Source: an uncultured Oscillospiraceae bacterium
GTDB taxonomy: Bacteria; Bacillota; Clostridia; Oscillospirales; Oscillospiraceae
DNA: 64,000 bases
Assembly: GCA_944385035.1 (NCBI GenBank)
Contig: CALWVV010000006.1
Location: 1 to 64,000, forward strand
Direction: 5' to 3'
Made by a program: the position numbers and the translations under genes. Below the pieces are notes generated by a model. It did not search any database. It was given only the letters and a program-made list of their open reading frames with translations, and was not told the origin of the DNA. Below, piece by piece: positions 1-18,893 of this stretch (the stretch's first letter is position 1; each line of letters starts with the position of its first letter).

Positions 1-51
1 CAAAACAAATACCTAAGTACCAGACCATCCCACACAGATTGCAATATACAT

Positions 52-1041
52 TTATGAGTGATTTCCTTCGTGGAACCTGACTCTTGGCAGCCCCGCCCGT
101 TTCAGCACCCGGTGGAGCATGTGGAGAACGCTGTCCGGGGAGATGGGACCGCCGTTAGGGGATGGGAACACCCAGGGGCTGCTGCCCACTTTTTTCTTCT
201 GTTCTAACAGAACGCTTACCGTATCTTCCGCCAATGGCAGAGTGCGGTAAGCGTTTTTTGTTTTCAGGGGCGCCTCCACCACCTCGCCGTTGATTCTCGC
301 CACTTGCCGTTTAACCCGGAGGTCGCCCCGCTCCAAATCAAGGTCCTCCCACTTAAGGCCCAGCAGTTCTCCTCTTCTCAATCCGGTGACCAGCTCCAGG
401 TAGTAGAGCTCGAACACCCCGCTCTCCCTGGCCTCCCGCAGGAAGGACCGGAGCTGCTCTACCGGCAGGGTCTTCATCTCCCGGTGCTCCACCTTTGGCA
501 GGGCGCAGCCCTCCGTCGGGTTGGTAAGGATGATCCGCTGCTCCTGGGCCAGTTTTAAGGCAGAGGACAGAATTTGATGGATGTTCCGCACTGTCTTGGC
601 ACTGAGCCCCTTGGGCTGTCCCTTGGCCTCCAGTCGGTCTACCCGGCCTTTGGTCAGCAGCTTTTTGTAAAACTTCTGCAAGTCCAGAGCGGTGAGCTTT
701 TCCAGCGGAATGTCTCCGATGTTGGGAACTATGTGATTGTCGATGTAGCCCTGGTAGGTCTGGTGGGAGGAGGGCCGGACTTTGATCTTAGCGTAGTCCT
801 CAAACCATACCTCCATCCACTCTCCCACGGTATACTTCCCAACTTTTGTCTGGTCCAAAGCTTGCGTCTCCTTAATAGCAGACTTCAGTTTCTCCTTGAC
901 CTCTGCCTGGGTTTTACCCAGTACATTCTTGTAGATGGCCTTGCCGGTCTCCGGGTCATGCCCCGCTGTGTACCGACCCTCCCAGCGGCCGTCTTTTCGT
1001 TTCCGGATACTTCCCTCGCCGTTAGCCCGTTTTTTAGCCAT
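52..1041 (-). pseudogene. Tyrosine recombinase/integrase, C-terminally truncated (island A)
   Basis: This is a 329-residue phage/ICE-type tyrosine integrase. The N-terminal arm-type DNA-binding domain (about residues 1-55, RANGEGSIRKRKDGRWEGRY) is followed by a SAM-like core-binding domain (about 65-185) and the start of the catalytic domain, with the first catalytic Arg in TGLRRGE. Compared with the sister copy at 10275-10895, similarity stops at RFH, just where the HDLRH motif should begin, and the reading frame ends after EGNHS. The HxxR, second His and nucleophilic Tyr are therefore missing. Joining of foreign sequence near position 74 explains this. The protein should be inactive as a recombinase. 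It overlaps the upstream small gene by 8 bases, suggesting translational coupling. Confidence 0.85.
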
Positions 1042-1351
1042 CTCTATTCACCTCCCGTTCCATAATCTCACAGGCTCGCCGCTCTTCCTCCTTTTGGAAG
1101 GAGTACAGGCCATCCGCCTCCAGCTCCCTGGCAATCCCCCAGGCCAGCTTAAATCCGGCTGTGAAGCTGGCCAGAGAGGTTTCCTCCCGCAGCAGGTTTT
1201 GCGCGTCCACCAGCTGCATCAATTTGCGCCGCTGCAGCTTGTCCAGGCAGTCCCGCACCTCCTGGCGGGTTTGCTCAATTTCCTCCTCCAGCTCTGAGAA
1301 GTCCGGCTCTCGGCAGAATCGCTGGTGCAGAGCGGTCATGTAGTCATTCAT
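1034..1351 (-). CDS. Small integrase-associated protein (DUF6809-like)
   Basis: A 105-residue acidic, probably helical protein beginning MNDYMTALHQRF, with heptad-like Glu/Leu-rich stretches and the segment DAQNLLREETSLASF. I chose the ATG at 1351 because AAGGAGGCG lies just upstream. Its stop overlaps the integrase start by 8 bases, so the two are probably co-translated. Small proteins of this kind are common directly upstream of integrases in Clostridia elements; my match to DUF6809 is from memory and not certain. The role is unknown; accessory DNA binding or excision control is possible. The sister element at 10.3-10.9 kb has lost this gene. Confidence 0.65.
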   Translation of the reverse strand: MNDYMTALHQRFCREPDFSELEEEIEQTRQEVRDCLDKLQRRKLMQLVDAQNLLREETSLASFTAGFKLAWGIARELEADGLYSFQKEEERRACEIMEREVNRDG

Positions 1352-1390
1352 TGTGTGTCGCCTCCTTGTCAGCAACACACAATACCCCAA

Positions 1391-2147
1391 CCAGCAGACA
1401 ATAGCCAGGGCAAACGAGCAGAGTTATCAGAATCGTAACAAATTTGCTCTCCGTCTTATCATTGTTAACACCGTACTATTTTCTGCGCCCTTTTCTTTTG
1501 TTTTGCGGCGCAATTTTTGAGGTCTCTCCGCCCCAACTCCGGACCAATTCCCCGTGACACTAAGGGTTCAGGGAAACACAACCCCAGAAGAGCAGAATTT
1601 TACCGTTCACAACCCCGCCCCGCAGGGCCTGAAACTGCCCGCACTGCGAGCAGAAGTAGCCGAGCCGGGGTGGTTACGACCCCGGCTCTTTCTCCTGCTT
1701 TTTTTCACACCGGCCCTGCGCCTCATCCTCGCAAGCGCCACATCCCTCGTTCCCGCCCAAACGGGCGAAAACTCGCTCATTCCGCTGCTCCGACTCTTCC
1801 CACCGAACCCGCTTTCGCTGGGCTTCGGCGGGAGCCCTCTTGTCTCCCTCCGCCGGCCCCAATTTGCCTCGAAAACCCTTGTTGGGGCAGCTTACCCTAC
1901 CCAGCCCGCCAAGAGGTCACACAGCGGCAAACAGCGGGGATATATCCGGTACCGTCTTTTTCTTTGTATTGCGTGTTAGTTTTTGGTATGCTTGTCCTCT
2001 ATGGCTTCACTTATCGACCGATCTAATTTTCAATGAAAATGAAATTATAGGTTTTATATTTTCGCCTATGTGACTCTGACCCACACTGTAGCCATAGAAA
2101 ATAATATCACCTCATATTTGTTATCCGGATCACACTCTAAGCTCTGC
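1391..2147. other. Non-coding stretch sharing diverged similarity with 10,915-11,310
   Basis: I see no convincing gene in these 757 bases; open frames here are Pro/Arg-rich and lack ribosome binding sites. Parts match the region upstream of the second integrase: the segment around 1,405-1,435 (ACAATAGCCAGGGCAAACG) matches 10,940-10,975, and about 1,690-1,790 matches 11,060-11,165 in diverged form. This supports common descent of the two integrase ends. A short dyad (TCTAAGC/GCTTAGA) sits at the stop of the next gene but has no T-run. Confidence 0.5.
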
Positions 2148-4100
2148 TTAGATATGCGCTCCCGCATTGTAGCCTTCCCTCATGGCATTAAAAATTTTGC
2201 GTACCTGGAAGCAGTCGCCGATTTTCCAGAAGTCATAGGCCAGTTCCCGGAACGCTTCCGCCTCCTCGTCCAAAGGAGCGAAGCCGGTGGCGGCAATTAC
2301 GGTATCGGCGGGAATCGTCTGCTCCCCGTCCGCCGTCTTGAGAACGGCAGCATTATCCCGGGCGGCGACGCATTCCGCCTCGTTCAAGATGGTGACACCC
2401 ACCTTCTCCAACTCCATCAGCAGGCCCTCCCGATACAGGAACGCCGCATCCCGACATACCTCTTTTTTCCGGCTGGCAATAGTAACTTTTTTCCCCATCT
2501 GTCCCAGCTGAAGGGCCAGTTCACAGCCCACCAGGCCGCCGCCTGCAATGACCACCGTTTCCCCAGTTTGTTCGGGATGCGCAATGGCCTCCAGGGCCAT
2601 CATAACATGGGCCGCTCCCTCCTTGGAAAACGCCGGTTTTTTCGGCTTGGCACCCATGGCGGCTACAATCACATCAGGAGTTTCCTTTTTCACCAGCTCT
2701 GCGGTTGCGGGAGTATTCAGACGAATGTCTGCGCCGCTGCGCTCCAGCCGACGGATCATGACATGCATAAATTGGTCCACCTTCTTTTTAAAGGGGACAT
2801 CCTTAGCATGGCGGAGCGCGCCGCCCAACTCCCCATCCTTTTCACACAGGATAACCCGATGTCCACGTTCTGACAGAACGGTAGCTGCCTCCATACCGGC
2901 AGGTCCGCCGCCGATGACCAGAACCCGTTTGGGCTGCTTGGTTTGGGTCACACGGCTGGCCGGGACCTCTTTATAAGCGGTGGGATTCACCGGGCAGCGC
3001 CTGATTCGGGAGGGATATTTCACATAGGGAACGAAGGATTCACTGATGCAGGCCATACACCGCAGGCAGGGATATACCTCATCTTCTCGTCCGGCCTTCA
3101 GCTTATTTGGTAAATCAGGATCCGCCAGCAGCGGGCGGCCCAGCGCTACCATGTCCGCCCGTCCCTGAGCCAGAATCTCTTCCATCAGCTCAGGGTTGCC
3201 CAGAGCGCCCACTGTCACCACCGGGGTGTGGTTCATAGCCTTTTTCACGGCCTCCGCCAAATAGACATTGCAGCCCTCCGGCAAGAATCCGTTGGGAATC
3301 ATATGCTGATTGGTCGAAGGAACGTGGAAGGTACCGGAGGTCACATGGATGAGGTCCACCTTGCCGTCCAGCAGCTTGGCAAATTCCACCTGGTCCTCCA
3401 GAGTGAGTCCACCCTCTACAATTTCAGTTCCGCTCATGCGCACTTCGATCGGAAAATCCGGACCGCACTTTTTACGGATGTTCTCAATGACCTCCAGCGT
3501 GATCCGGGCCCGGTTCTCCAGGCAGCCGCCATACTTGTCGGTGCGTCGGTTGTTCAGCGGGGAGAGAAATTGATGCAGCAGCCACCCGTGGCCGGCGTGG
3601 ATCATTACCATGTCCACCCCGCCCAGCTTGGCCATCTCCGCTGCGTTGCCGAAGCAGTCCACAATGTAGTCAATCGTCTCCTGATCCAGGGCCACGTAAT
3701 CTTTGCCCAGATGGCCCGGGCCATCACTGGGGCCCCAAATCGGGCCATCGTAATACTCGGGATTGGAGCGGGTTCCGGGATGAATCAACTCCACAGCGGA
3801 GAAAGCGTTATACTTCTTGATGGCATCGCTGGCGGCATGCAGATACGGGAGCACCTCTGGATCATCCAGCGGGATGCACAGCTTATGAGAAATGCCCGTC
3901 TTTAAATCAATTCGGCACTCCCCCATATTTACAATAGCTGCTCCGCCTCTGGCTTTTCCTTCAAAAATCGCAATATTTTCCGGAGTAAGATATCCGTCTT
4001 GGGTCAAATTGGAAATATTGACCGGTGCCGCTTCAATCCGGTTTTTCAGCGTATAAGGTCCAACCTTGATGGGGCTGAACAGATGGGGATACTTTTTCAT
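2148..4100 (-). CDS. Old Yellow Enzyme-family NADH:flavin oxidoreductase (2-enoate/dienoyl-CoA reductase-like) 1
   Basis: A 650-residue flavoprotein of the 2,4-dienoyl-CoA reductase/2-enoate reductase/BaiCD class. The first part (about 1-330) is an FMN TIM barrel (HPGTRSNPEYY, HAGHGWLLHQFLSP, GRPLLADPDLP). Four cysteines follow (CLRCMAC and RRCPVNP), as expected for a [4Fe-4S] cluster. The last part is an FAD/NAD(P)H-binding region with GGGPAGMEAA and GGGLVGCELA. Such enzymes reduce activated C=C bonds with NAD(P)H under anaerobic conditions. The start is the ATG at 4100, preceded by AAGGGAAG. It is the last gene of a four-gene operon shared with a second paralogue (6933-8927). The substrate is unknown. 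Confidence 0.9.
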   Translation of the reverse strand: MKKYPHLFSPIKVGPYTLKNRIEAAPVNISNLTQDGYLTPENIAIFEGKARGGAAIVNMGECRIDLKTGISHKLCIPLDDPEVLPYLHAASDAIKKYNAFSAVELIHPGTRSNPEYYDGPIWGPSDGPGHLGKDYVALDQETIDYIVDCFGNAAEMAKLGGVDMVMIHAGHGWLLHQFLSPLNNRRTDKYGGCLENRARITLEVIENIRKKCGPDFPIEVRMSGTEIVEGGLTLEDQVEFAKLLDGKVDLIHVTSGTFHVPSTNQHMIPNGFLPEGCNVYLAEAVKKAMNHTPVVTVGALGNPELMEEILAQGRADMVALGRPLLADPDLPNKLKAGREDEVYPCLRCMACISESFVPYVKYPSRIRRCPVNPTAYKEVPASRVTQTKQPKRVLVIGGGPAGMEAATVLSERGHRVILCEKDGELGGALRHAKDVPFKKKVDQFMHVMIRRLERSGADIRLNTPATAELVKKETPDVIVAAMGAKPKKPAFSKEGAAHVMMALEAIAHPEQTGETVVIAGGGLVGCELALQLGQMGKKVTIASRKKEVCRDAAFLYREGLLMELEKVGVTILNEAECVAARDNAAVLKTADGEQTIPADTVIAATGFAPLDEEAEAFRELAYDFWKIGDCFQVRKIFNAMREGYNAGAHI

Positions 4101-4169
4101 CGGAATCTTCCCTTCTTTGTCTCTATAAGCAGCAGGCCGGCACAATGCCGGCCTGCCTGGTGGTTTGGT

Positions 4170-5531
4170 TTAAGCAACTGTTTTCTTCTGGGTCAGAAGA
4201 CTGACGACCACATAAGCAATCACCGAGGGAATCAGCGGGGTAAAGCTAATGTAGGGAACAGCGACGAGGCCGGTCATATTTACAATGATAACGGCCATGC
4301 CGCAAAGCGCACTGGCAATAGCGCCTTCCTTGGTACCCTTCTTCCACCAAATACCGCCAAGCACCATGACCAGTGCACCGGCGTTCATCAGGGAATAGGT
4401 AGAGGACAGCAGGGACAGGATGCTGGAGGAAGAGATCGCCAGGCTCAGAGCAATAACGCCGGACACCAGGGTAACAATCGTGGACAGACGGCCCAGGGTT
4501 TTCTCGCTCGCCTTGGGGTTCAGGGTCTTATAGTAAATGTCGTTCACCGTGTTGGCGGTGACATTCAGCAGACCGATATCCATGGTGGACATCACGGCGG
4601 ACAGCACCGCAGAGATCATAAGGCCAGCAATGATGGGATTCATCTCCAGAACCACATCAAACAGGATGGCGGCAGTGGGCGCATCGGGGAAAAGCGCCTT
4701 GCCGTACATGCCGATGATAACGGGAAGAACCACGAAGGGGATCAGGGCAAAGGCGGCAATCAGGGGAGCCCAGAAGGCTACCTTTTCATTCTTACAGGAG
4801 GCTGTACGCTGATAGGCGGCACCGGAGATAAGGCCGTTCAGCGCGCCGGGAACCATCATCATAAACAAGGTCTCTGCATCGAAGGGCACCAGTTCAAAAG
4901 AGCTCTCGGGCAGGGCGGCAGAAATGGCGTCGAAGCCGCCGTTCATGGCAATGGCCACAATGCAGAAAATAGTGCTGAAGAAAATGATTGTGGTCTGGAC
5001 CGAGTCGGTCATCATAACGCCCCACATGCCGGACAGGGCGCAGTAAATAAATACCACGATGGCCATCAGCGCAGCACCCAGCGTGGGGTTAAGCCCCAGG
5101 GCGCTGAACAGAGCGGAGCCAGCCATAATCTGCGCGGCCATAATGCCCAGGGTTGCACAGATGTTCAAGATAGCCATCAATACGGAGGCCACCTTGCTTT
5201 GATAGCGGTCGCGAATCAGATCGGGAATGGTGATGTAGCCCCGGCGATAAAGCAGTCTGGACATCACAACGGCAAACAGCACGTAGGACAAAACCGCGCC
5301 CAGGCCGAACCACATGCCTCCAATACCGTATTCCGCACCATACTGTGCACCGCCTACGATAATGCCGTTGCCCACGTGTGCGCCGATATAGGTACAGATC
5401 ATGACAAACATACCGCCGCTTTTTCCTGCCGTCAGGAACTCCGTCATTGTGGCGCTCTTTTTGCTGCCATAGATGCCAATGGCCAGCATACCGCCCATAT
5501 AGATTACCAGAATCAGAACAATAATAGCCAT
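4170..5531 (-). CDS. Sodium:solute symporter family permease
   Basis: A 453-residue, very hydrophobic protein of the SSS family (PutP/PanF-like), with about 12-13 membrane segments. The N-terminal segment MAIIVLILVIYMGGMLAIGI, the YIGAHVGNGIIVGGAQYGAEYG region and the PDLIRDRYQ motif are typical. AGGAGGTACAT precedes the ATG. It lies between the enolase-superfamily gene and the first flavoprotein gene, so it probably imports the organic acid used by this operon. SSS members carry proline, pantothenate, sugars or monocarboxylates, and the substrate cannot be read from sequence. Confidence 0.88.
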   Translation of the reverse strand: MAIIVLILVIYMGGMLAIGIYGSKKSATMTEFLTAGKSGGMFVMICTYIGAHVGNGIIVGGAQYGAEYGIGGMWFGLGAVLSYVLFAVVMSRLLYRRGYITIPDLIRDRYQSKVASVLMAILNICATLGIMAAQIMAGSALFSALGLNPTLGAALMAIVVFIYCALSGMWGVMMTDSVQTTIIFFSTIFCIVAIAMNGGFDAISAALPESSFELVPFDAETLFMMMVPGALNGLISGAAYQRTASCKNEKVAFWAPLIAAFALIPFVVLPVIIGMYGKALFPDAPTAAILFDVVLEMNPIIAGLMISAVLSAVMSTMDIGLLNVTANTVNDIYYKTLNPKASEKTLGRLSTIVTLVSGVIALSLAISSSSILSLLSSTYSLMNAGALVMVLGGIWWKKGTKEGAIASALCGMAVIIVNMTGLVAVPYISFTPLIPSVIAYVVVSLLTQKKTVA

Positions 5532-5610
5532 ATGTACCTCCTATTTCCTCTCATGATGAATTTATATATAAATAGGGACACTCCCTCTTTATATTTATGA
5601 GCCTTCCGCT

Positions 5611-6759
5611 TTAGTCCTGTACCTGACAGGATTCGTCACAAACCACTGTCTGTTTTGTGTAATAGCGCAGCTTCTCCTCATCAATCTCCACACCGAAGCC
5701 CGGTCCATCCGGCACAATAAAGGAGCCATTGACAATCCGGTTGGATCCCACGGCGATGTCCTCAATTTCATAGGGACCGCTGGCTTCACAAGCGAAGTTA
5801 ATCTGCTTAAGTGTAGCCGCAAACTGCATGGAAGCAAAGGTGCTGATCCCCAACTCCACAGACGACATAACCACACAGGGAATGTTATAAAGCTCCGCCA
5901 AATCCCGGGTAATTCTGGCCTTTGTAATTCCACCCGGCCGATCTGTCTTGATGGTAAAGAGGCTGACCGCCTCCCGGTCCATCAGTTCCTTGACATCGTA
6001 AATACTGGACATGGACTCATGGGGCATAACCGGAATATACGTGGCCGCGTTTATTTGGGCCAGTCCGTCCAGATCGTTCCATACGATAGGCTGCTCGTAA
6101 ATCTCCACATCGTTCTCTTCCAGGACAGGAATCATCTTCAGCGCTTCTTTCACGCTGTAAGCCTGATTGGGGTCTACACGCAGTTTGATATCTGCTCCGA
6201 TTGTTTTTCGGATTTCCCGAACCAGTTGAATATCCTTCTTCAAATCTCCCAGTCCGAGCTTGATCCGCACCGTTTTAAAGCCCTGTTCAATCCACTTGAG
6301 GCTGGCCTTCTTCATGTTCTCCAGTGTATCAATGGTCACAATGGCCTGCAGCGGAATTTCCTTTCGGACCAGTCCACCCATAAAATTGTAGGCAGGCATT
6401 CCGGTCTTCTTTCCCATGATGTCATAGAGCGCCATATCAATTGCGCCCTTGGCCTGCGCCGCATAAGGAGCCGCCCGATCCATCGCTTTCCAGATTGCCT
6501 CTACTTGGAAGGGATCAAGTCCGATGACCGCAGGTGCTACATAATCGGAGAGCATGGACACAATCGGCTTTTGACCCATCTGAGAGGTTCTGGCAAAGGG
6601 GGCCGATTCTCCATATCCCACAATCCCCTCATCAGTATGGACTTTCACTACCACAAACCGGCATAGTTCCCATTTGCCCAGCGCAATTTCGCCCACATTT
6701 TCCTGGTTTCCCTTAAATGGCACATCCGTGGCCATAATTTCAACTTTTGTGATCTTCAC
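5611..6759 (-). CDS. Mandelate racemase/muconate lactonizing enzyme family protein (enolase superfamily)
   Basis: A 382-residue enolase-superfamily enzyme. Visible functional residues are R165-x-K167 (where the muconate cycloisomerase group usually has KxK), metal ligands D196 (VDPNQ), E222 (YEQP) and E248 (PHES), and second base K271 in the IKTDRPGGI strand. The N-terminal capping domain covers about residues 1-125. Enzymes of this group abstract a proton next to a carboxylate, giving racemisation, cycloisomerisation or dehydration. The start is GTG with GGGGAG six bases upstream. It sits between two ene-reductases and a symporter, which suggests a carboxylic-acid pathway. The exact reaction is not predictable. 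Confidence 0.88.
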   Translation of the reverse strand: MKITKVEIMATDVPFKGNQENVGEIALGKWELCRFVVVKVHTDEGIVGYGESAPFARTSQMGQKPIVSMLSDYVAPAVIGLDPFQVEAIWKAMDRAAPYAAQAKGAIDMALYDIMGKKTGMPAYNFMGGLVRKEIPLQAIVTIDTLENMKKASLKWIEQGFKTVRIKLGLGDLKKDIQLVREIRKTIGADIKLRVDPNQAYSVKEALKMIPVLEENDVEIYEQPIVWNDLDGLAQINAATYIPVMPHESMSSIYDVKELMDREAVSLFTIKTDRPGGITKARITRDLAELYNIPCVVMSSVELGISTFASMQFAATLKQINFACEASGPYEIEDIAVGSNRIVNGSFIVPDGPGFGVEIDEEKLRYYTKQTVVCDESCQVQD

Positions 6760-8992: not shown

Positions 8993-9094
8993 TTATATTA
9001 TGTTACGAAGCAGACTTTTCATTTTTAGTGAAAATATCCAAATGATTTTTTCATGAAATTGTGTTATATTAGTAAAAATGGAAGGATGCTATTT

Positions 9095-10102: not shown

Positions 10103-10148
10103 GCTCATAACCCGGAGGTCGGAGGTTCGAGTCCTCCTCCCGCAACCA
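10103..10148 (+). other. 3' half of an initiator tRNA-Met gene (att core)
   Basis: The sequence from the anticodon loop (CTCATAA, anticodon CAT) through the variable region, T-arm (GGAGG-TTCGAGT-CCTCC), acceptor 3' strand and CCA end is present. The 5' half (acceptor, D-arm and 5' anticodon stem) is absent, so this is not a functional tRNA. The ACCCGGAGGTCGGAGG segment and the CCCGCAACCA end are typical of Firmicutes fMet tRNA. Tyrosine integrases commonly recombine in the anticodon loop and restore the 3' half, leaving exactly this footprint. Confidence 0.75.
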
Positions 10149-10182: not shown

Positions 10183-10274
10183 TCTTCATTTCCTACCACT
10201 TTTCTGCCTGGTTTATTTTTGTACATGCTGTTTGACCCAAACCGTGACCCATATGCGGAAATGTCCGGAAAGGT

Positions 10275-10895: not shown

Positions 10896-11430
10896 GTGTG
10901 TCGTCTCCTTTTCAGCAACACATAATACTCCTACTCTATGACAATAGCCAGGGCAAACGGGCAGAGTTATCCAAACAGTAACACTTTTCCATCCTCCTTA
11001 TTATTCATACTACTTTCTATAACTCCTTTTATTCTATCCAGGCGCAATAAAACGCCCAGTTTTTCTGCCTGCTTTTCTTTTGTCTCTGTCCCTGCGCTTC
11101 GTTCTCGCAATCATGTCCCTCATTTCCGCACAAATCGCAGAAAACTCACTTATTCCATTGTTCCTCCTCTCCTCGCGCGCCAGCTTACACCTGGTTTCTG
11201 GAAAAATTCAAATTTGCTTTACACTCCTGCTCTCTAAACAGCCACACAGGAATTCACAGAGACAAATAGCGGAATGTTGCTGGTACCACCTTATTGAAGG
11301 ATAAACCTTTTATTTTATCCTTTATAAAAGCCTCATTTATGTCAGGCGACACAAGGACATACCAATATTTTAATTCGTTAAAATTCATAAAGCTTTTTCA
11401 AAATATTTGTCTAGTATTTTAAAGAGTTTT
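10896..11430. other. Non-coding stretch: integrase leader remnant and AT-rich upstream region
   Basis: No gene seen. Bases 10,898-11,310 align in patches with 1,352-1,960, including the leader of the lost accessory gene and the GACAATAGCCAGGGCAAACG block. Beyond 11,310 the sequence becomes AT-rich and leads to the promoter of the LarA-like operon. Confidence 0.5.
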
Positions 11431-11475: not shown

Positions 11476-11549
11476 TAGTATACTAGTTGTATACATGTTT
11501 TAAGGCGCGCATAATTAGCGCTTCTTATTTTTGAACATATTGTATACAA
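11476..11549. promoter_or_regulatory. Three GntR/FadR-type operator sites (GTATAC cores)
   Basis: TAGTATACTA (11476-11485, perfect palindrome), TTGTATACAT (11487-11496) and TTGTATACAA (11540-11549, perfect palindrome). The first two cores are 11 bp apart, one helical turn, and the third is 53 bp further, about five turns. FadR/FCD-type GntR proteins are known to bind TNGTATACNA-like dyads. The sites lie just after the predicted transcription start, so binding would repress. Confidence 0.7.
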
Positions 11550-11596: not shown

Positions 11597-12844
11597 ATGC
11601 CAATCTTATTGCAGGAGGATTTGAATCGACCTCTTCCGCAGATGTTCCGGGTACAGCAAAATTTTAAAGGAGACCATTTAGAAAATGTCCCTGAGGCAGT
11701 TCGAAACGAATTTTCAAAACCGGAGATTTCAGGAAAAATTATTTCGGGAGCGAAAGTTGCCGTAGCAGTCGGTAGCCGAGGCATTAGAGACTTGTTTTCT
11801 GTGGTTTCCACTGTTGTAGAGCAGTTAAAGCTGCTCGGCGCAAAACCATTCATTGTTTCCGCAATGGGAAGCCACGGCGGCGGCACGGAAGAAGGCCAGA
11901 GAGAAGTCCTTGCTGGGTATGACATTACCCCTGAAAAGTTAGGCGTTCCTGTGATTACCACGGTAGATACCGTAAGCCTTGGCAAGAGCAAATCGGGAAA
12001 AGAAGTTTGGTTTGACCGGGCAGCCTACGAAGCAGATTTGATTGTTCCCATCAACCGGATTAAACTTCACACCGATTTTGTCGGTCCGCTTCAGAGCGGG
12101 CTATGCAAAATGATGGTGATCGGGCTTGGCAACCACAAAGGCTGCTCTTCTGTACACGAAGAGTCCCCGGAGTGTTTTGCAGAGGCTATTGAAGAAAGAG
12201 CTGAAGTCATTCTGGAAAAAGCCCCCATCGGATTTGGTGTAGCGATTCTGGAAAATGCCTACGACAAGACCTGTCACATCGAAGCAATCCCTGCTGAAAG
12301 GCTGATCGCCAGAGAAAAAGAACTGGTTCTACAGGCAAAAGACAATATGCCTTATATCATGCTTCCGCAGGCTGATGTAATTGTATGTAAAGAGATTGGA
12401 AAGGACATCTCCGGAGCCGGCTTCGACCCCAATATTTTGGGCCGCAGTTCCGTTTTAAAAACATTTGTACTTCATATTCCCAAATATCAAAAGTTGGTTT
12501 TAACCGATGTATCCCATGCTAGCCATGGAAATGGAATCGGTGTTGGGTTGTTCGATGTTATTACCAAAAAGGTTGCAGACCAGTTGGATTTAGAGTCTAT
12601 GTACGCAAATGCGATCGCATGTAATTGTCTTGGAGATGCTTCCATTCCTTGTACTGTCGAAGACGAGGAAACGGCGATCCGAGTGGCGCTAAAATGCTGC
12701 CGTGGAATTGACCGAAACAACCCTAAAATTATTCGCATTCAGAATACCTTGCATCTGGAATACATTGAGGTGTCTTCGGCTCTTCTGGAAGATGTGAAGG
12801 CAAACCCAAAATTGAAACTAGTCGATGATACAGACATTACCTAG
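11597..12844 (+). CDS. LarA-like (DUF2088) nickel-pincer-dependent racemase/epimerase family protein
   Basis: A 415-residue protein of the lactate racemase (LarA) superfamily. The start MPILLQEDLNRPLP, the segment GAKPFIVSAMGSHGGGTEEG, and KLHTDF...LCKMMVIGLGNHKG are the recognisable parts. H93, H158, K171 and H180 are candidates for the histidines and the lysine that bind the nickel pincer nucleotide in LarA. Related enzymes racemise or epimerise alpha-hydroxy acids. No larB/larC/larE cofactor genes are in this window. GGGAGGATATT precedes the ATG. It is the first gene of a six-gene cassette with aconitase X and a TRAP transporter, so it may epimerise an imported hydroxy acid before dehydration. 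The true substrate is unknown. Confidence 0.8.
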   Translation: MPILLQEDLNRPLPQMFRVQQNFKGDHLENVPEAVRNEFSKPEISGKIISGAKVAVAVGSRGIRDLFSVVSTVVEQLKLLGAKPFIVSAMGSHGGGTEEGQREVLAGYDITPEKLGVPVITTVDTVSLGKSKSGKEVWFDRAAYEADLIVPINRIKLHTDFVGPLQSGLCKMMVIGLGNHKGCSSVHEESPECFAEAIEERAEVILEKAPIGFGVAILENAYDKTCHIEAIPAERLIAREKELVLQAKDNMPYIMLPQADVIVCKEIGKDISGAGFDPNILGRSSVLKTFVLHIPKYQKLVLTDVSHASHGNGIGVGLFDVITKKVADQLDLESMYANAIACNCLGDASIPCTVEDEETAIRVALKCCRGIDRNNPKIIRIQNTLHLEYIEVSSALLEDVKANPKLKLVDDTDIT

Positions 12845-12868: not shown

Positions 12869-14083
12869 ATGATTCTAAACGAAGAACAGCAAGCCATGCT
12901 GGACGGAAAGTATGGTGAAGGAGCCGCTTACGCCATGAAAATCCAGGTGGGTATTGGCGAGTGTTTTGATGCTCCCCGGATGGTGCCTATTACACGGGCT
13001 CATGTGGCGCTGAGCAACCAGGCAGGCGATTTGTGGTTTGCCGAAAAGCTGCTGAATGCCGGTGCCAAATGCCGCATTCCGCCTACTGTTAACCCCGGCT
13101 TCTGTATCGGCCACTTCACTGGTTCCTGTGCACATCCCGTAAGCGAGGAAGATGCGGAACATATGCGCCGCACCAACGCTGCTTACCGCGGACTGGGCGC
13201 TGTCCTGTCCTATAACTGCACTCCCTACATCGCTTCCAATGTACCTAACTTCGGCGAGGTCTGTGCCTTCTCCGAGTCCAGCGCCACTCCCTATGTGAAC
13301 TCTGTGTGGGGTGCCCGCTCTAACCGCGAAAGTGCCAACAGCGCTTTGTGCGCCGCTGTTACCGGTTATGTCCCCGAATACGGCCTGCTGTTGGATGAGA
13401 ACCGGAAAGGCAACATTCTGGTTCATGTGGAAGCCAACATGAAGAGCGACTATGAGTACCATCTGTTGGGCATGATGGGAGCCAAAATCGGCGAGGGCAT
13501 CCCCGTTTTCACAGGCCTTCCCGCCCACATTAGCCCCGAGGCGCTGCGCAATCTTGGCGCTCAGCTGAACACCTCCGGTGCTTACGGCATGTATCATATT
13601 GTAGGCTTTACGCCTGAAGCTCCCACGCTGGAAGCTGCCTTCGGCGGAAAGAAGCCTCAGCGGGAAGTGGTTATTACAGACAAGGATCTCAAGGAGTTTG
13701 AGGAACTCTTCAGTGACAAAGCGGAAAACGGCAAAGTGGACTTTGCCATGTTCGGCTGCCCCCACTTTACTTTGAAAGAGACGCTCTACATCGCCAAACA
13801 GATCGAAGGCAAGAAGCTGGCCATTCCCATGTACATCCTGGTCTCCAGCGATGCTGCCGAGATGGCCCGCCGCATGGGCGCTTACGACATATTGACCGCG
13901 GCCGGAGCCGAGCTGCTGTCTGACTCCTGTCCCGACCAGCCCTGCTGGCATTATCTGAAAGGCAAAGTAGGTATCACCGAGTCCCCCAAATGTGCCTACT
14001 ATCCCCGCCGCAGAGGGATTAACTTTATGATCCGCGACCTGGACACTTGTATCGAGGCCGCCCTGACTGGAGAGGTGAAATAA
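12869..14083 (+). CDS. Aconitase X large (catalytic) subunit
   Basis: A 404-residue AcnX large-subunit family protein (formerly DUF521), recognised from MILNEEQQAMLDGKYGEGAAYAMKI, the TVNPGFCIGHF region and the C-terminal DSCPDQPCWHYL...SPKCAYYPRRRG segment rich in conserved cysteines, which probably hold an Fe-S cluster. Characterised AcnX enzymes dehydrate cis-3-hydroxy-L-proline in bacteria or mevalonate 5-phosphate in archaea. AAAAGGAGG lies upstream of the ATG, 24 bases after the LarA-like gene. The small subunit gene follows after 1 base, so this is the split, two-subunit form. Pairing with a LarA-like protein rather than a proline racemase argues for a hydroxy-acid substrate other than hydroxyproline. 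Confidence 0.88.
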   Translation: MILNEEQQAMLDGKYGEGAAYAMKIQVGIGECFDAPRMVPITRAHVALSNQAGDLWFAEKLLNAGAKCRIPPTVNPGFCIGHFTGSCAHPVSEEDAEHMRRTNAAYRGLGAVLSYNCTPYIASNVPNFGEVCAFSESSATPYVNSVWGARSNRESANSALCAAVTGYVPEYGLLLDENRKGNILVHVEANMKSDYEYHLLGMMGAKIGEGIPVFTGLPAHISPEALRNLGAQLNTSGAYGMYHIVGFTPEAPTLEAAFGGKKPQREVVITDKDLKEFEELFSDKAENGKVDFAMFGCPHFTLKETLYIAKQIEGKKLAIPMYILVSSDAAEMARRMGAYDILTAAGAELLSDSCPDQPCWHYLKGKVGITESPKCAYYPRRRGINFMIRDLDTCIEAALTGEVK

Positions 14084-14084
14084 C

Positions 14085-14492
14085 ATGGCGAAGAGATTTT
14101 CATGTCATAAAATTTCCGAGGGTAAGGCCGAGGCTGAGGCCATTATTACCAAGGACCGCATTATGTTTTATCAGGTACGTCCCGAAGACGGTGTAATGGA
14201 GGAAAAAAACCACGAGTTAGAGGGGCGCAGCATTGCAAAAAAAATCCTCCTGTTCCCCGGAGGAAAGGGCAGCTCTGTGGTTCAGCAGGATGGACTGTAT
14301 CATCTGGACCGCTTCCACAATATGCCATCTGCCTTAATCATTCAGGATCCCGATCCCGTTCTGGTAGCGGGTGCCATCATTATGGAGCTGCCCATGGTCG
14401 ACAAGGTGGACGCCGCTTTCTATGAGCAAGTAAAAGATGGCGATATCGTGGAAGTGAACGCCGATGAGGGATACGTGGAAATTAAGGACTAA
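14085..14492 (+). CDS. Aconitase X swivel-domain (small) subunit
   Basis: A 135-residue AcnX small subunit (formerly DUF126), matching the aconitase swivel domain. The GGKGSSV loop, which carries the catalytic serine region in this family, is at about residues 64-70. ITKDRI near the start and a C-terminal GDIVEVNADEGYVEI strand are also typical. The ATG lies 1 base after the stop of the large subunit, so the two should be made together as a complex. The TRAP binding-protein gene follows after 92 bases. Confidence 0.88.
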   Translation: MAKRFSCHKISEGKAEAEAIITKDRIMFYQVRPEDGVMEEKNHELEGRSIAKKILLFPGGKGSSVVQQDGLYHLDRFHNMPSALIIQDPDPVLVAGAIIMELPMVDKVDAAFYEQVKDGDIVEVNADEGYVEIKD

Positions 14493-14584
14493 CCGTTTTA
14501 TGTAAGTTGTCGTTTTAAACGTTGTGGGAAATACAAATAGAGAGCTCCAATTTGAATGAAACATTACAATCGGGAGGAATAAAC

Positions 14585-15625
14585 ATGAAGTTCAGAAAAG
14601 TATTGTCTCTTGCTTTGGCTACTGCAATGACCCTGACATTGGTTGCTTGCGGCGGCGGAAACAGCAACTCCGGCAGCCAAGCTTCCTCTGACGGTCAGGC
14701 TTCCGGTGAAAAGATCACCTTGCAGATTGGCCACGTAGAGGCGGAAGATCGTTCCACACACAAGGCTCTCCTTCAGTTTAAGGACGAATTGGAGGAGAAG
14801 TCTGGCGGCCGCTTTGAAGTGACGATTTTCCCCAATTCTGAGCTGGGCGGTGATGAGGAGCTTTGTGAAGCTGTGGCAATGGGCACCATTCAGATGGCAC
14901 TGCCTTCCACCTCCGTGCTGACCGCCTATAACGAACAAATCGGTGTATTGGATATGCCCTATCTCTTTAACGATTCTCAGGCCGCGTTCAACGCCTTAGA
15001 CGGTGAGCTGGGTGATCAGATTAACGAGTGGATCGGCGGCAACGGTTTTATCAACCTGGGCTTCACCTATAATGGTCCTCGCTGCACTACCAATAACATC
15101 CGCCCGATTCATAGCGCTGATGATATGAAGGGCCTGAAGATTCGTGTTATGAGCTCTCCGGTGTTTACCGATATGTACAAGACACTGGGTGCTACTCCTA
15201 CCCCCATGAGCTTCTCTGAACTTTTTACCGGTCTGCAGCAGAATGTTGTTGATGGTCAGGAGAATCCCCCCACTCTGATTTATGCTTCCGGTTTCCAGCA
15301 GGTTCAGAAGTACTTAACTCTGGACAACCACGTACATAACTTCCTGGCTGTTTTGACCAACGAGGCATTCTACGACGGCTTGAGCGAAGAGGATCAGCAG
15401 GTTCTGAATGAATGCGTGGCCAACATGGTGGACAATCAGCGCAGCATCGAGCTGGAGGATAACGAGACCATCGTCGGCAAGCTGGAAGAGGCTGGCATGG
15501 AAATCAATGAACTGACAGATGAGGAGTATGCTGCTTTTGTGGAAGCGGTACAGCCCATGTATCAGGAATATCAGGCGAAGTGGGGCTCCGAGGTATTTGA
15601 ACTGGCAGAGTCCTTCAACCAGTAA
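14585..15625 (+). CDS. TRAP transporter solute-binding lipoprotein (DctP family) 1
   Basis: A 346-residue secreted binding protein. The signal peptide MKFRKVLSLALATAMTLTLV ends in a lipobox VAC, followed by a Gly/Ser/Asn-rich linker, so it should be anchored to the outer face of the membrane. The mature part is a DctP fold, with the LKIRVMSSPVFTDMYKTLGA region containing the conserved Arg that pairs with substrate carboxylates. AATCGGGAGGAATAAAC precedes the ATG at 14585. The gene lies within the AcnX operon and precedes the two permease genes, so it probably captures the organic acid processed by LarA-like protein and AcnX. Confidence 0.9.
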   Translation: MKFRKVLSLALATAMTLTLVACGGGNSNSGSQASSDGQASGEKITLQIGHVEAEDRSTHKALLQFKDELEEKSGGRFEVTIFPNSELGGDEELCEAVAMGTIQMALPSTSVLTAYNEQIGVLDMPYLFNDSQAAFNALDGELGDQINEWIGGNGFINLGFTYNGPRCTTNNIRPIHSADDMKGLKIRVMSSPVFTDMYKTLGATPTPMSFSELFTGLQQNVVDGQENPPTLIYASGFQQVQKYLTLDNHVHNFLAVLTNEAFYDGLSEEDQQVLNECVANMVDNQRSIELEDNETIVGKLEEAGMEINELTDEEYAAFVEAVQPMYQEYQAKWGSEVFELAESFNQ

Positions 15626-15671
15626 CCTGCTCGCTGCTGAGGCTGAACAATTTAAGTATTGACCCCATTTG

Positions 15672-15722
15672 ACAAAATAGACCGGGCGGCGCGATGTACC
15701 TTGCCCGCCCGGTCTATTTTGT
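15672..15722 (+). promoter_or_regulatory. Strong hairpin between dctP and dctQ (operon 1)
   Basis: An 18-bp perfect stem (15672-15689 with 15705-15722) and a 15-base loop, with no T-run after it. It sits 46 bases after the binding-protein stop and ends just before the ribosome binding site of dctQ. It probably protects the binding-protein mRNA or partly terminates, raising binding protein over permease. A matching arrangement occurs at 26113-26150. Confidence 0.6.
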
Positions 15723-15747
15723 AAAAGAGAGAGGAGCTGTTCCCCAT

Positions 15748-16263
15748 ATGAAAAAAGACAGCTTTTTGGAAAAGCTGATATTTGGTTACGATAAATTAGA
15801 AGAGTGGATTCTGTGTGGAAGTCTGGTCTTGACCACACTCATTATTACAACACAGATCATTATGCGTAATATTGGTCAAGCACTTATTTGGAGCGAAGAG
15901 TTGACCCGTTATATTTTTGTCTGGCAGATTTGGCTGGGCGTAAGTATTGCTCAGAAGGACAAAGCTCACATCAATGTGGAAATCATTAAATCCTTTGTGA
16001 AGAACAAAACGGTGCTGGCTATCATCAGCATCATTGCAACTTTGATTTGGATTATTTTTAATATTTTTCTGGTGGGAGCTGGCTTTGAGCTGGTTCAGCA
16101 GATGATTACCCGTGGAAATGTGTCCAGTGCCCTGCGCCTGCCAATGTACCTGGTGTATGTTTCTCTGCCAATCTCTTCCGCAATTTTGACTCTGCGTCTG
16201 CTTGGAAAGTTGAAAAACGATGTTTTGGCCCTGGCTGGTAAAAATAATGAGGAGGTGGAGTAA
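15748..16263 (+). CDS. TRAP transporter small permease subunit (DctQ family) 1
   Basis: A 171-residue protein with four predicted membrane segments (WILCGSLVLTTLIITTQIIM, the YIFVWQIWLGVSIA region, VLAIISIIATLIWIIFNIFLV, YLVYVSLPISSAILTLRLL). The EELTRYIFVWQIWLG motif is typical for DctQ. The start is the ATG at 15748 with GAGAGGAG upstream; an in-frame ATG at 15694 lies inside the hairpin loop and is unlikely. The stop at 16263 directly abuts the dctM ATG at 16264. Confidence 0.9.
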   Translation: MKKDSFLEKLIFGYDKLEEWILCGSLVLTTLIITTQIIMRNIGQALIWSEELTRYIFVWQIWLGVSIAQKDKAHINVEIIKSFVKNKTVLAIISIIATLIWIIFNIFLVGAGFELVQQMITRGNVSSALRLPMYLVYVSLPISSAILTLRLLGKLKNDVLALAGKNNEEVE

Positions 16264-17538
16264 ATGGAAGCAGCAGTTTTATTTATTTCGTTTTTCGTTC
16301 TTTTGCTGTTGACGGTGCCCATTGGTTACTCCATCGGCATTGCTACATTGTTTACGATCGTGGTTTGCGGAGACACGATTCCTCTGACCATGATTACGCA
16401 AAAATGTATTACTGGCGTAGACTCTTTCCCGCTGATGGCAGTTCCCTTTTTTATGCTGGCCGGAAATTTAATGAGTAGCGGCGGCATTGCAAAGCGTATT
16501 TTGGATTTCTTTGATACGTTTATGGGATTTATTGCTGGCGGATTAAGCATGGTGACGACCATTACCTGTATGTTTTTCGCGGCCATTTCCGGATCTGCAA
16601 TTGCAACTACTTCGGCAGTAGGTTCCTTCATGATTCCTGCCATGAAGAACAAAGGCTATGATGAGGGGTTCAGCGCCTCCATCTGTGCTGCTGCAGGTAC
16701 CATCGGTGTAATTATTCCTCCCAGTGTTCCCTTTGTAATTTACGGTGTAGCTACAGGCACTTCTATTACCGACCTGTTTAAGGCCGGCATTGTCCCCGGT
16801 GTTGCCATGGGTGTAGCGCTTATGATCGTCTGCTACATTATGGCGAAAAAATATGGATTCAAGGGTGAGGAAAAGCAGTTTAGCTTGAAGGCCGTTGGCG
16901 TCAGTTTCCTTAAGGCGTTTCCTGCACTGCTTTCTCCTGCCATTATCCTGGGCGGCATTTACTCTGGTAAATTCACTCCCACTGAAGCCGCTGTGATTAG
17001 TGTGGTCTATTCCTTCTTTGTAGGACGGTTTGTGTATCGGGAGCTCGATAACAAAGCGGTATACAAAGCCCTGCGCGACACCATCGTCGTGAATGGTTCT
17101 ACTACCTTCATGGTGGGATTGTCTTCTGCCTTTGCTGCCTACCTGAGCCTGGCCGGAATTCCTCGCACGCTGGCTAATAGCCTGTTGGGCATCACGGACA
17201 ATAAAATCATTCTGTTGATTTTAATCAATGTGTTCCTGCTGGTAGTAGGTTGCTTGATCGATAATATCCCTGCAACCATCATTCTGGCTCCCATTCTGCT
17301 GCCGGTGGTGGAGGCACTGGGCATGAGCCCAATCACCTTCGGAATTATGCTGACCATGAACTTGGCGGTTGGTTTCTGCACGCCTCCGTACGGAATTGAT
17401 TTGTTCGTAGCGTCCGCTATTTCCGGTGTATCCATTGGCAAGATGATGAAGTTCATGACGTGGTTCATTGTGGCCCTGCTCGTTGTTTTGCTGTTGGTTA
17501 CCTACTGGCCCGCCTTTACTCTGTTTATGCTTCCCTGA
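16264..17538 (+). CDS. TRAP transporter large permease subunit (DctM family) 1
   Basis: A 424-residue DctM-family permease with about 12 membrane helices. Recognisable segments are SFPLMAVPFFMLAGNLMSSGGIAKRI, FFAAISGSAIATTSAVGSFM, GTIGVIIPPSVPFVIYGVATG and GFCTPPYGIDLF. It forms the ion-driven channel with DctQ and moves the substrate delivered by the binding protein, usually with sodium. It is the last structural gene of the AcnX cassette. Confidence 0.92.
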   Translation: MEAAVLFISFFVLLLLTVPIGYSIGIATLFTIVVCGDTIPLTMITQKCITGVDSFPLMAVPFFMLAGNLMSSGGIAKRILDFFDTFMGFIAGGLSMVTTITCMFFAAISGSAIATTSAVGSFMIPAMKNKGYDEGFSASICAAAGTIGVIIPPSVPFVIYGVATGTSITDLFKAGIVPGVAMGVALMIVCYIMAKKYGFKGEEKQFSLKAVGVSFLKAFPALLSPAIILGGIYSGKFTPTEAAVISVVYSFFVGRFVYRELDNKAVYKALRDTIVVNGSTTFMVGLSSAFAAYLSLAGIPRTLANSLLGITDNKIILLILINVFLLVVGCLIDNIPATIILAPILLPVVEALGMSPITFGIMLTMNLAVGFCTPPYGIDLFVASAISGVSIGKMMKFMTWFIVALLVVLLLVTYWPAFTLFMLP

Positions 17539-17679: not shown

Positions 17680-17707
17680 TTGAAATTTCGTTTAAATCTG
17701 GTAAAAT
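17680..17707 (+). promoter_or_regulatory. Promoter of the GntR-type regulator
   Basis: TTGAAA (17680-17685), 16-base spacer, TAAAAT (17702-17707). It is independent of the AcnX operon, from which it is separated by the terminator at 17617-17653. No GTATAC core is present here, so autoregulation by the same site type is not evident. Confidence 0.5.
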
Positions 17708-17761
17708 ATAGACAAATTACAACACATACTTGAATTATGTAGTAGAAATGATAGGTGTACT

Positions 17762-18418
17762 ATGATGCAAAAAAAACAAAAGGTCAGTTTGTCCGAACTT
17801 GCATATCAACAGATTAAAGATGAAATCTGTCGAGGGCAGATAAGTTTAGGTGATATCATCAGTGAGAATCAGCTGGCCGAACAACTAGGGATGAGCCGCA
17901 CTCCTGTCCGCGAAGCCTTACGGCATTTGGCCGCAGAAGGATTTGTAGAAATTAAAACGGGGATTGGGGCATATGTAACGCCTCTATCCTCAAAGGATAT
18001 GGAGGATCTCTATGAAATTCGATGCTTACTTGAAGTACAAGCAATCAAAACCTCTATTTATAGAATTACCGATGAAGAGATTGATGGATTCGAAGTGAGG
18101 TTTCAGGCATTGTATGATGCTTGCGAGCGTGGGGAACGAACCACACAGGGAGAGTTCTCAGAGTTAGATTGGCAACTACACTGCCTCTTTGTGGAGAGAT
18201 GTACAAATAAGTACATCAAAAGTATCGTAGCCAGTTATGATTCGAAATTACGCAGATGCCAATCAATGTCGGTGGAGGCACTTAATAATGTACAGGAAAG
18301 CGCACGGCAACATCTGCAAATTTTAAAAACTCTGCGTTTAAGAGATCCCGATCAAGCTTCTCAAGTATTAAAAGCGCATTTGGAGTGGTCAGAAAATTTT
18401 CTTCGCGTTTCTGAGTAA
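17762..18418 (+). CDS. GntR family transcriptional regulator (FadR/FCD subfamily)
   Basis: A 218-residue regulator. The N-terminal winged helix (about 8-75) has the GntR signature ENQLAEQLGMSRTPVREALRHLAAEGFVE. The C-terminal all-helical FCD domain (about 80-212) senses ligands and often holds a metal by Asp/His residues; DWQLHCLFVE and the ARQHLQI region fit. The ATG at 17762 has only a weak AGGTG upstream. As the last gene of island B it is the obvious controller of the AcnX cassette through the GTATAC sites at 11476-11549. The ligand is presumably the imported acid or a product. Confidence 0.9.
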   Translation: MMQKKQKVSLSELAYQQIKDEICRGQISLGDIISENQLAEQLGMSRTPVREALRHLAAEGFVEIKTGIGAYVTPLSSKDMEDLYEIRCLLEVQAIKTSIYRITDEEIDGFEVRFQALYDACERGERTTQGEFSELDWQLHCLFVERCTNKYIKSIVASYDSKLRRCQSMSVEALNNVQESARQHLQILKTLRLRDPDQASQVLKAHLEWSENFLRVSE

Positions 18419-18675
18419 TCTATCATACTTCCGCTCCGCATACTTTAAGCTTTTGATCTATGTGAAATAAAAACTTCAAAATAAGCGCCGGCCTCCCTCA
18501 CATCCCATAAAGTCCGTAATAAATATAGGTATCTATCGATCTAATAGAGATGCTGAACTATTGTGGTATATTCGGAAGATACCGGTGTACCTTAGAAAAA
18601 CCTCGGTAATTTTTTTCTAAATCGCATCAGTACTTGGCGGAACTTATTTGATCCGCTGCAAAGGCTCTTTTGTCC
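18419..18675. other. Intergenic stretch between the GntR gene and the island end
   Basis: No gene or clear signal seen; the sequence is AT-rich and leads into the direct repeat. Confidence 0.4.
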
Positions 18676-18893
18676 GACCCCAAACCGTGACCTATACGGG
18701 GTTCGGGCTTTACGGAACCATTGGAGCAGACAGGGACAAACAGTACACCTACTCCCAGCAGAAAGGACACAAACGCTCTCAATGGCGCCACCCCACATCC
18801 AGACCGCAGCTCATAACCGGTCGGTCGGAGGTTCAAGGCCTCCTCCCGCAACCAACAAGCCGCTGAAATCATATGATTTCAGCGGCTTTCTTT
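18676..18893 (+). repeat. Direct repeat copy 2: right end of island B with degenerate tRNA-fMet 3' half
   Basis: Matches 9970-10186: arm-like CAAACCGTGACC, a GGAGCAGACAGGGACAAACAG segment, the tRNA 3' part at 18809-18854 and the hairpin at 18857-18888. The tRNA part is more decayed than copy 1 (for example GTTCAAGGCC in place of GTTCGAGTCC). The two copies have the same orientation and bracket an 8.7-kb unit, as left by an integrative element. Confidence 0.75.
18857..18888 (+). terminator. Hairpin after the second tRNA 3' remnant
   Basis: A perfect 14-bp stem (AAGCCGCTGAAATC / GATTTCAGCGGCTT) with loop ATAT, followed by TCTTTT. It may now serve as a rightward terminator at the island end. 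Confidence 0.6.

Follow-up and report, generated by a model that had tools for sequence, protein, structure and literature searches.

The DNA analyzed here (the window) covers 64 kb from the start of contig C6 (CALWVV010000006.1) of an uncultured Oscillospiraceae bacterium, whose genome, G000, totals 2.52 Mb in 53 contigs and is 89.5% complete. With a probability that we put at about 0.8, the start of the window falls within an array of small integrative islands, lined up in tandem at the 3' end of the initiator tRNA (tRNA-fMet) gene and each consisting of a vehicle and one cargo operon. One end of the vehicle comprises a 45-nt tRNA core, a terminator, arm boxes, a tyrosine integrase, a DUF6809-like gene that some units lack and a conserved stretch termed the shoulder; the other end is an arm region and a core. 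The sequences show that one integrase family sits at the tRNA-fMet 3' end and that in relatives whole units are precisely present or absent, the tRNA remaining intact and the far boundary having a second 3' end. They also show that cargo operons vary among genomes, with near-identical cargo in different species next to diverged vehicles. The window holds two such units, unit 1 and unit 2 (Table 1). In what follows, G labels are genomes of the genus (G000 being the source), C labels contigs and L labels fetched loci; these loci total 1.7 Mb and were chosen for having such integrases or relaxases, and counts among them are not genome-wide rates.

Attachment site, arms and integrase

Two direct repeats (window 9972-10186 and 18679-18892) show 86% identity across 215 nt, with local blocks of 82% and 93%, and each contains a 45-nt tRNA-fMet 3' half (10104-10148 and 18810-18854, the second 89% identical to the first). 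The core was identified as tRNA-fMet because its 45 nt equal the end of an intact gene: a tRNA-Leu(TAA)-tRNA-Met(CAT) pair lies near the end of G000:C16, and the last 45 nt of its tRNA-fMet (52801-52845) have the same letters as 10104-10148. Directly 3' of this pair is an integrase of the window family, which runs off the contig. A pattern search of G000 found the core in three places (C6 10104, C16 52801 and C33 6-45), the C33 copy forming, with a right arm, the end of its contig; a further copy, at C6 124309, is more decayed. The first-pass annotation had described repeats of ~217 bp, each with the 3' half of a tRNA-fMet gene. The repeats and the match to the gene are real, but only 45 of the ~217 nt are tRNA, the remainder being an arm region of ~130 nt and a terminator. 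That annotation had also proposed looking for empty sites in related genomes, and these exist for units of the same family, the pairs found not covering window units 1 and 2. A flank of 5.75 kb (96.4% identity) follows the intact tRNA in G003, where the site is empty, and the distal core of a 7.4-kb unit in G007. Similarly, the flank of the empty site on G034:C20 is 98.2% identical over 2.98 kb to that of G022, where the site is filled by a 9.5-kb catabolic unit, and G005 has the same flank (77.5%) and an empty site. G034 also carries the 7.4-kb unit on C30, so strains may be mixed in this bin, or the unit may occupy another site. A right-hand chromosomal boundary conserved throughout the genus was considered and rejected, as the compared flanks differ, filled/empty pairs aside.

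A census of 36 junctions (integrase at least 58% identical, with its C-terminal end no more than 400 nt from the core) found paired GACCC[AG] boxes ~86 and ~98 nt past the core, with at least two boxes in 34 of the 36 left arms; L098 and L114 have a single box each. On the right, box pairs lie ~132 and ~120 nt ahead of the distal core in 11 of 13 units, the exceptions being L108 (one box) and window unit 2, at whose decayed end, the second repeat, no intact arm box was found with the motif used. The box positions resemble the arm-binding sites that would be expected for a two-domain tyrosine integrase.

In seven of the 13 units with two cores, both copies are identical. The two cores of G031:C178 and of L094 agree over GCTCATAACCCGGAGGTCG and diverge only 3' of it, those of L090, L091 and L105 are one base apart, and those of window unit 2 are several bases apart. 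Furthermore, G001:C8 and G031:C39 share cargo and right arm, and their sequences part at the same core position. Because displaced tRNA ends differ 3' of GCTCATAACCCGGAGGTCG, the crossover probably sits in the anticodon-arm half of the core. Besides the core of its tRNA-Leu/fMet pair, six more copies are present in G027, spread over several contigs, the status of the displaced ends having been checked for part of them only.

Intact copies of the integrase, with an N-terminal SAM-like and a phage-integrase catalytic domain, occur in relatives, and neither window unit has a complete one. The unit 1 copy (52-1041) is short of ~55-60 C-terminal residues at the contig start and the unit 2 copy (10275-10895) has lost residues ~38-213, which bears out the earlier description of a related integrase remnant at the beginning of each unit. 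Since both are incomplete, units 1 and 2 are probably no longer self-excising. The best solved-structure matches of the intact integrase are 6en0 and 6emy ('Int protein'), which we take to be the Tn1549 integrase. As to integron-type integrases, the unit 2 copy scored 32 bits against a cut-off of 265, and the unit 1 copy had no integron-integrase match among the matches listed; attC sites were not searched.

Integrase breaks are seen elsewhere too. In L107 (10972-16351) an fMet integrase is split at the HDLRHT active-site motif by an insert with, by eye, two serine-recombinase-like genes and a ParA-like gene. A C-terminal integrase fragment near position 7302 of L089 begins at the same break position, and the window break is about a dozen bases from the L107 insert site. 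This spot seems to be the target of another mobile element. No group II intron or other Rfam RNA reached the gathering score at the integrase break in L107, L089 or L001, two tRNAs in L089 excepted, and nothing reached it in window 1-25000. Paralogous integrases (~51%) of G007 lie near other tRNAs, namely a tRNA-Pro (L248) and a cluster including tRNA-Thr (L249), and another paralogous locus of this genome (L247) has TGACCCA-type arms twice; all three are probably further arrays of like design at other sites.

Could the array be an assembly artefact, with C6 a chimera joined at the repeated attachment (att) region and the two cassettes neighbours in no cell? The att region is indeed repeated, and contig C183 of G031 ends at window position 9979, as at an assembly branch point. 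However, tandem units occur in isolates too (L088, L089 and L090), and the two window junctions are only 86% alike and therefore easier to assemble across, which makes a chimera hardly credible.

Cargo operons and their histories

An integrase at least 72% identical is present in 13 of the 64 genus genomes surveyed, five more having only paralogs of 50-52%; these 18 pass the survey threshold of E 1e-120, which fragments can escape. Close integrases occur in Clostridiales bacterium CCNA10, Pseudoflavonifractor, Flavonifractor, Flintibacter, Oscillibacter and other Oscillospiraceae (73 loci, 37 of them at least 61% identical), and in relatives (Pseudoflavonifractor, Flavonifractor and Flintibacter) the same vehicle is found at the same tRNA with other cargo. 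Tandem arrays are also seen in L088, L091, G022:C59 and G027:C136.

Cargo was tallied in 21 units, some with a core on one side only. L091 gave no proteins and the others 90, two of them from G027:C138, which nearly duplicates C33. Among the 25 of 122 Pfam families listed, the most frequent are DctM (6), GntR (5), and DctP, DctQ, SSF, sigma-54 activator and LysR domains (3 each). Protein-by-protein annotation assigned a transporter to 11 of the 21 units (window units 1 and 2, C33, G022:C8, G027:C136, G027:C145, G027:C156, L092, L090, L182 and L180), several units having been scanned only in the tally. For instance, one operon has tripartite ATP-independent periplasmic (TRAP) transporter, HpcH aldolase and LacI genes, and others combine DctM with HMGL-like, 2-hydroxyacid dehydrogenase and LysR genes, DcuC with M20, arginase and a sigma-54 regulator, a sodium/solute symporter (SSF) with an aromatic amino acid lyase and a sigma-54 regulator, or TctA with a sulfatase and a radical SAM protein. 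In G011:C1 the cargo is flanked by two copies (760034-761182 and 767067-768215) of a 382-aa protein that is transposase-like by eye and whose first 60 residues are the same.

The cargo bears on a reading of the islands as decayed prophages or phage satellites, in which the integrases are of phage type, the islands are phage remains in tRNA-fMet and the cargo is extra genes. Integration at a tRNA and the Phage_int_SAM_3 and Phage_integrase domains would suit such an origin, as would some PHROGs matches in the cargo, where the families named major tail protein and endolysin account for two of the 90 proteins each (among the 25 of 61 families listed). Against this, IMG/VR yielded no close integrase relative (14 loci, the best at 32% identity), the commonest cargo families among the 25 of 122 listed are transporters and regulators, and a sibling described below bears relaxase and NikA-like genes. 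We consider a phage origin highly improbable.

Near-identical copies of unit 1 are present in two of the 60 other genus genomes (G001 and G031) and of unit 2 in none of them. Diverged, near-full-length relatives of unit 1 (72-75%) occur in G036, G023 and G081, the remaining genomes of the 61 searched having partial or weaker matches, mostly to a dispersed repeat at its edge. For unit 2, G001 and G031 have matches of ~80-115 nt only, and partial relatives (69-81%) occur in G008, G034, G066, G023, G020, G061, G081, G064 and G035; two of these genomes, G023 and G081, contain diverged relatives of unit 1 as well as unit 2, on separate contigs. Units 1 and 2 do not travel as a fixed pair, since unit 1 recurs in G001 and G031 where unit 2 does not.

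Comparison of cargo with its surroundings points to separate histories (near-identical cargo pairs between genomes are those among the matches listed). For a conserved 373-aa gene, located beside the tRNA in G000, the G000 copy shares 90.0% identity with that of G001 and 88.3% with that of G031, and a 7.3-kb stretch adjoining the site is 90.3% identical between G000 and G001. The unit 1 cargo is 99-100% identical among these genomes: 100% over 8285 nt against G031:C183 (window 1695-9979) and 99% against G001:C8, with a lowest 200-nt window of ~96% against G001. This identity ends at 9979, inside the right arm, falling to 83% from 9980 on, and it also drops left of ~1600-1695. In G007, G022 and G034 the 373-aa gene is 90.3-92.0% identical and the cargo (~1611200 to the distal core) 99.3-100%, while the integrase end is a mosaic, mostly 80-92% with some windows of 98-100%. 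Sharing between the cargos of L090 and L107 is patchier (76-100%). C33 is 99.8% identical to G027:C138 over 8.95 kb, the 373-aa gene being 86.1% identical; C33 stops at the core without an integrase, so it tests the cargo side only, and it could be misbinned. Because two cargos are near-identical between species whose vehicles and core gene are ~10% diverged, cargo and integrase appear to have separate histories. The discordance fits homologous recombination within the vehicle, with gene conversion among tandem copies as an alternative.

The same data must be weighed against an ordinary tRNA hotspot, where cargo moves whole with its integrase and discordance arises only from later divergence or gene conversion of the vehicle repeats. 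Consistent with a hotspot, unrelated tyrosine integrases (24-33% identity) lie at the same fMet core (G022:C59:9225-10547, G031:C178:7204-8484 and G006:C40:12107-13501), and the integrase ends of G007 and G034 are in part 98-100% identical, as after gene conversion. But one integrase family, fixed arm spacing and a conserved shoulder recur with different cargo, and cargo identity breaks sharply at vehicle features in two families (unit 1 and the surface-protein unit of G007, G022 and G034), a third pair, L090 and L107, being patchy throughout. On balance we consider the hotspot account unlikely. The unrelated integrases of G022:C59 and G031:C178 use the fMet core from the opposite side.

Mobilization and comparison with known elements

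PF03432 relaxases are present in 9 of 12 genomes searched, and none of the listed PF03432 matches falls in an fMet array of this integrase family, other relaxase families not having been searched; the relaxases of G022:C12 lie more than 20 kb from a core that has an unrelated integrase. The sibling already mentioned is in G079 (L256), as two tandem copies at another tRNA (tRNA-Thr, read from sequence). Its gene row is NikA-like protein, relaxase, DUF6809-like protein (slightly below the PF20648 cut-off) and integrase, with TGACCCA arms and a terminator, and the fMet vehicles look like it minus the NikA-like and relaxase genes. That the window units are not conjugative elements, as first annotated, is true of the units themselves, but their family includes this relaxase-bearing mobilizable sibling, and so the window units may ride on conjugation.

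A GC-rich element of ~100 nt with inverted repeats lies ~410-600 nt upstream, on the same strand, of 9 of the 19 fetched relaxase domains, and we read it as a putative origin of transfer (oriT). Four of the nine relaxase-side copies are in the alignment behind the search model, and those of L267, L268, L269 and L263 are weak (E 0.0008-0.013). The element also occurs in 17 of 49 loci with an integrase at least 58% identical (E <0.001; 9 of the 17 are in the alignment), as well as in L250 and L251. It is weak and at the distal end in G007, G022:C59 and G034:C30, and within the cargo in L094. One of 19 predicted hairpin pairs is changed on both sides, and the alignment says little about covariation. 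Two other candidates were set aside. A 31-nt vehicle box (39 occurrences with up to 8 mismatches in the fetched loci, none when reversed) was considered as a nicking site; in the sibling it precedes mobilization genes and the DUF6809-like gene alike, and a regulatory leader is at least as likely. A ~115-nt repeat (window 1723-1838) scattered across the genus lies near a relaxase in G000:C12, yet it is taken for a general intergenic repeat because it has many copies where no relaxase was seen.

Taken together, the units would descend from integrative and mobilizable elements (IMEs) stripped of their relaxase and NikA genes, would accumulate by tandem accretion and would move in trans with the relaxases of relatives. 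Their cargo would be swapped between vehicles via homologous recombination in conserved integrase, shoulder and arm sequences. A wider scheme is more tentative, and we give it somewhat less than even odds: a genus-wide exchange library, in which relaxase-less islands, part of them with oriT-like sites, dock single catabolic operons at tRNA-fMet. Conserved vehicle ends would then serve as homology handles, by which operons captured from chromosomes within the genus would be swapped among resident vehicles, cargo crossing species independently of the integrase.

Several observations weigh against this account of the islands. In G000 the window and the intact tRNA fall on separate contigs, and the order of the array is our reconstruction. 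In L091 and L105 the core mismatch falls inside or at the end of the stretch common to G031:C178 and L094. The core-divergence estimate covers a single gene and a single flank. Sharing of unit 1 could partly be misbinning, G001 and G031 both being metagenome bins; G007 (one contig) and G022 are safer, and the cargo that they share is of surface type. Nor is the cargo exclusively catabolic, as the unit of G007, G022 and G034 encodes one 1479-aa surface-type SLH/GLUG protein and that of L108 a GH3 protein and a kinase, with no transporter found. The operons do not depend on islands, since similar ones exist outside arrays: 12 stretches from other species around diverged operon relatives (L234-L245) contain no core and no such integrase. 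Finally, neither window unit yielded the oriT-like element, nor did 32 of the 49 integrase loci, and in some of the 17 that have it the element lies in or beyond the cargo, not in the shoulder.

The kind of island is already known from Dehalococcoides ssrA islands and oriT-only IMEs, and the fMet family, itself not found in the literature searched, is a new variant in Oscillospiraceae. According to the published descriptions cited here, a single small-RNA gene in Dehalococcoides is followed by islands in tandem, and directly repeated copies of its 3' end mark their borders (PMC3146451). As in the fMet arrays, the integration module adjoins the gene, the cargo is catabolic, some islands have no module, and transfer is not encoded; cargo is also far more alike than the integration module, the vcrABC islands having 99.4% against 75.0% identity (PMC3146451). 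The Dehalococcoides recombinases are the serine recombinases DsiB/DsiA, acting at the transfer-messenger RNA gene, and the cargo is reductive dehalogenases (PMC3146451), whereas here a tyrosine integrase acts at tRNA-fMet, operons are of varied transporter-plus-enzyme types and there is a relaxase-bearing sibling.

Reviews of IMEs describe oriT-only elements and accretion (PMC5704250, PMC11389934). Like relaxase-less IMEs (iOriT), the fMet islands encode an integrase themselves, some carry an oriT-like sequence and no relaxase was found, and a relaxase-bearing relative exists, as in the reductive-evolution model outlined there (PMC11389934, PMC5704250). Unlike iOriT elements as described, they form arrays with exchanged cargo, and their putative oriT was detected in neither window unit. 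Tandem accretion of integrative and conjugative elements (ICEs), IMEs and cis-mobilizable elements (CIMEs) similarly places elements with the same att side by side, decayed ones included (PMC5704250). The differences from that account are a single dominant vehicle family with mostly catabolic operons and, within a search limited to PF03432 and the families listed, no conjugative element in the fMet arrays. Tycheposons, which we compared by description only, are likewise cargo elements at tRNA genes (tRNA-Met among the targets) with a tyrosine recombinase and nutrient-related cargo (PMC10872708, PMC11389934); those are from marine and freshwater bacteria, whereas arms, shoulder and the sibling's relaxase here point to conjugative mobilization. 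Islander, as reported, holds 125 tandems of at least two and 4 of at least three among 3919 islands (PMC4383910), and long arrays are thus uncommon there.

Nearly identical gene sets across species suggest that these gut bacteria trade ready-made metabolic abilities, and the islands would give gut Oscillospiraceae a sequence-defined route for gaining or losing single catabolic abilities, each a transporter with enzymes and a regulator. Discordance of cargo and integrase repeats, in a different phylum and with a recombinase of unrelated type, what was reported for Dehalococcoides, suggesting a general mode of array evolution. The oriT-like element that the islands share with relaxase-bearing elements makes movement of islands without transfer genes testable, and the fixed core and arms are a handle for automatic detection of such operons.

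The two window units and their surroundings

As the first-pass annotation had recognized, each window unit carries one transport-plus-enzyme operon with its own regulator: an SSF symporter, old yellow enzyme (OYE) family proteins, an enolase-superfamily enzyme and PadR in unit 1, and an isomerase, AcnX, a TRAP transporter and GntR in unit 2. The operator predicted for each unit has a putative counterpart in the sequence, and the independent presence and absence of the two cassettes is borne out by their distribution (2 of 60 and 0 of 60 genomes). The notion of a site collecting catabolic modules in tandem is supported, other genomes having different transporter-plus-enzyme operons at this tRNA; the surface-protein unit of G007, G022 and G034 does not conform to it. 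The two long OYE-family flavoenzymes of unit 1 are kin of BaiCD and bilirubin reductase, and the likeliest role of unit 1 is uptake and reduction of an unsaturated or aromatic acid. Unit 2 most likely imports a hydroxyacid and then isomerises or dehydrates it. Its operator-like boxes, TTGTATACAT and TTGTATACAA (11487-11496 and 11540-11549), lie upstream of the operon; with one mismatch allowed the box has three matches in the window, and at least three were also obtained in 7 of 100 shuffles. On the vehicle side, the DUF6809-like gene sits between integrase and cargo in many units, not all, and the shoulder is conserved within the lineage of the window.

Table 1. Features of units 1 and 2 (window positions)
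Feature	Position	Strand	Remarks
Contig-edge sequence	1..67		No integrase homology; matches elsewhere in G000 begin at 68
Unit 1 tyrosine integrase	52..1041	-	Catalytic C-terminal end missing; Phage_int_SAM_3 + Phage_integrase; 91% to intact 385-aa G011 copy
DUF6809-like small vehicle protein	1034..1390	-	Window copy itself without Pfam match; relatives match PF20648
Left shoulder, vehicle sequence kept between units	1391..1990		Holds 31-nt box (1398-1428) and hairpin (~1662-1688)
OYE/BaiCD-like Fe-S flavoenzyme	2148..4145	-	Below curated cut-off
Sodium/solute symporter (SSF)	4170..5531	-	
Enolase-superfamily enzyme, muconate cycloisomerase-like	5611..6759	-	Below curated cut-off
Second OYE-like Fe-S flavoenzyme	6933..8927	-	Below curated cut-off
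20-bp perfect palindrome	8970..8989		Putative PadR operator, between operon and padR
PadR-family regulator	9053..9667	+	
Right arm of unit 1, paired TGACCCA boxes	9969..9987	+	9969-9975 and 9981-9987; putative integrase arm sites
att core, tRNA-fMet 3' half	10103..10148	+	Unit 1/unit 2 junction
Terminator-like inverted repeat	10151-10182	+	3' of core
Unit 2 left arm, paired TGACCCA boxes	10233..10251	+	
Unit 2 tyrosine integrase remnant	10275..10895	-	Large in-frame internal deletion
31-nt vehicle box, unit 2 copy	10941..10971	+	
Two TTGTATACAA-type boxes	11487..11549	+	Putative GntR operator
Nickel-pincer-nucleotide isomerase, group 22	11597..12844	+	499 bits against cut-off of 400
AcnX-type dehydratase, large and small subunits	12869..14492	+	Below curated cut-off
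TRAP transporter DctP, small permease, DctM	14522..17538	+	
FCD-type GntR regulator	17762..18418	+	
Decayed distal att of unit 2	18679..18888	+	Mutated right arm, core 18809-18854, terminator-like repeat 18857-18888

Directly past the second att, window 18902-28023 encodes a MarR-like protein, a PatB-like C-S lyase, an M20 hydrolase, DcuC, gamma-glutamyltranspeptidase and likely TRAP genes, with no integrase; this cluster is perhaps the decayed remainder of an older unit. Genes for flagella and chemotaxis (FlhA, FliF, FliM/N-like, CheA, EAL/GGDEF) follow from window 28569 to at least C6:78797; FlhA has a patchy distribution, occurring in 34 of the 64 genus genomes. ARAGORN called a tRNA-Pro(agg) at window 40964-41054, inside an open reading frame of this region, and the call is probably false. 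Farther along the contig, G000:C6:122007-124399 (L011) has the decayed core and a terminator together with a LysR gene and an octopine-dehydrogenase-like gene 90% identical to one in a G022 fMet unit, and is possibly a stranded unit ~105 kb from the window array.

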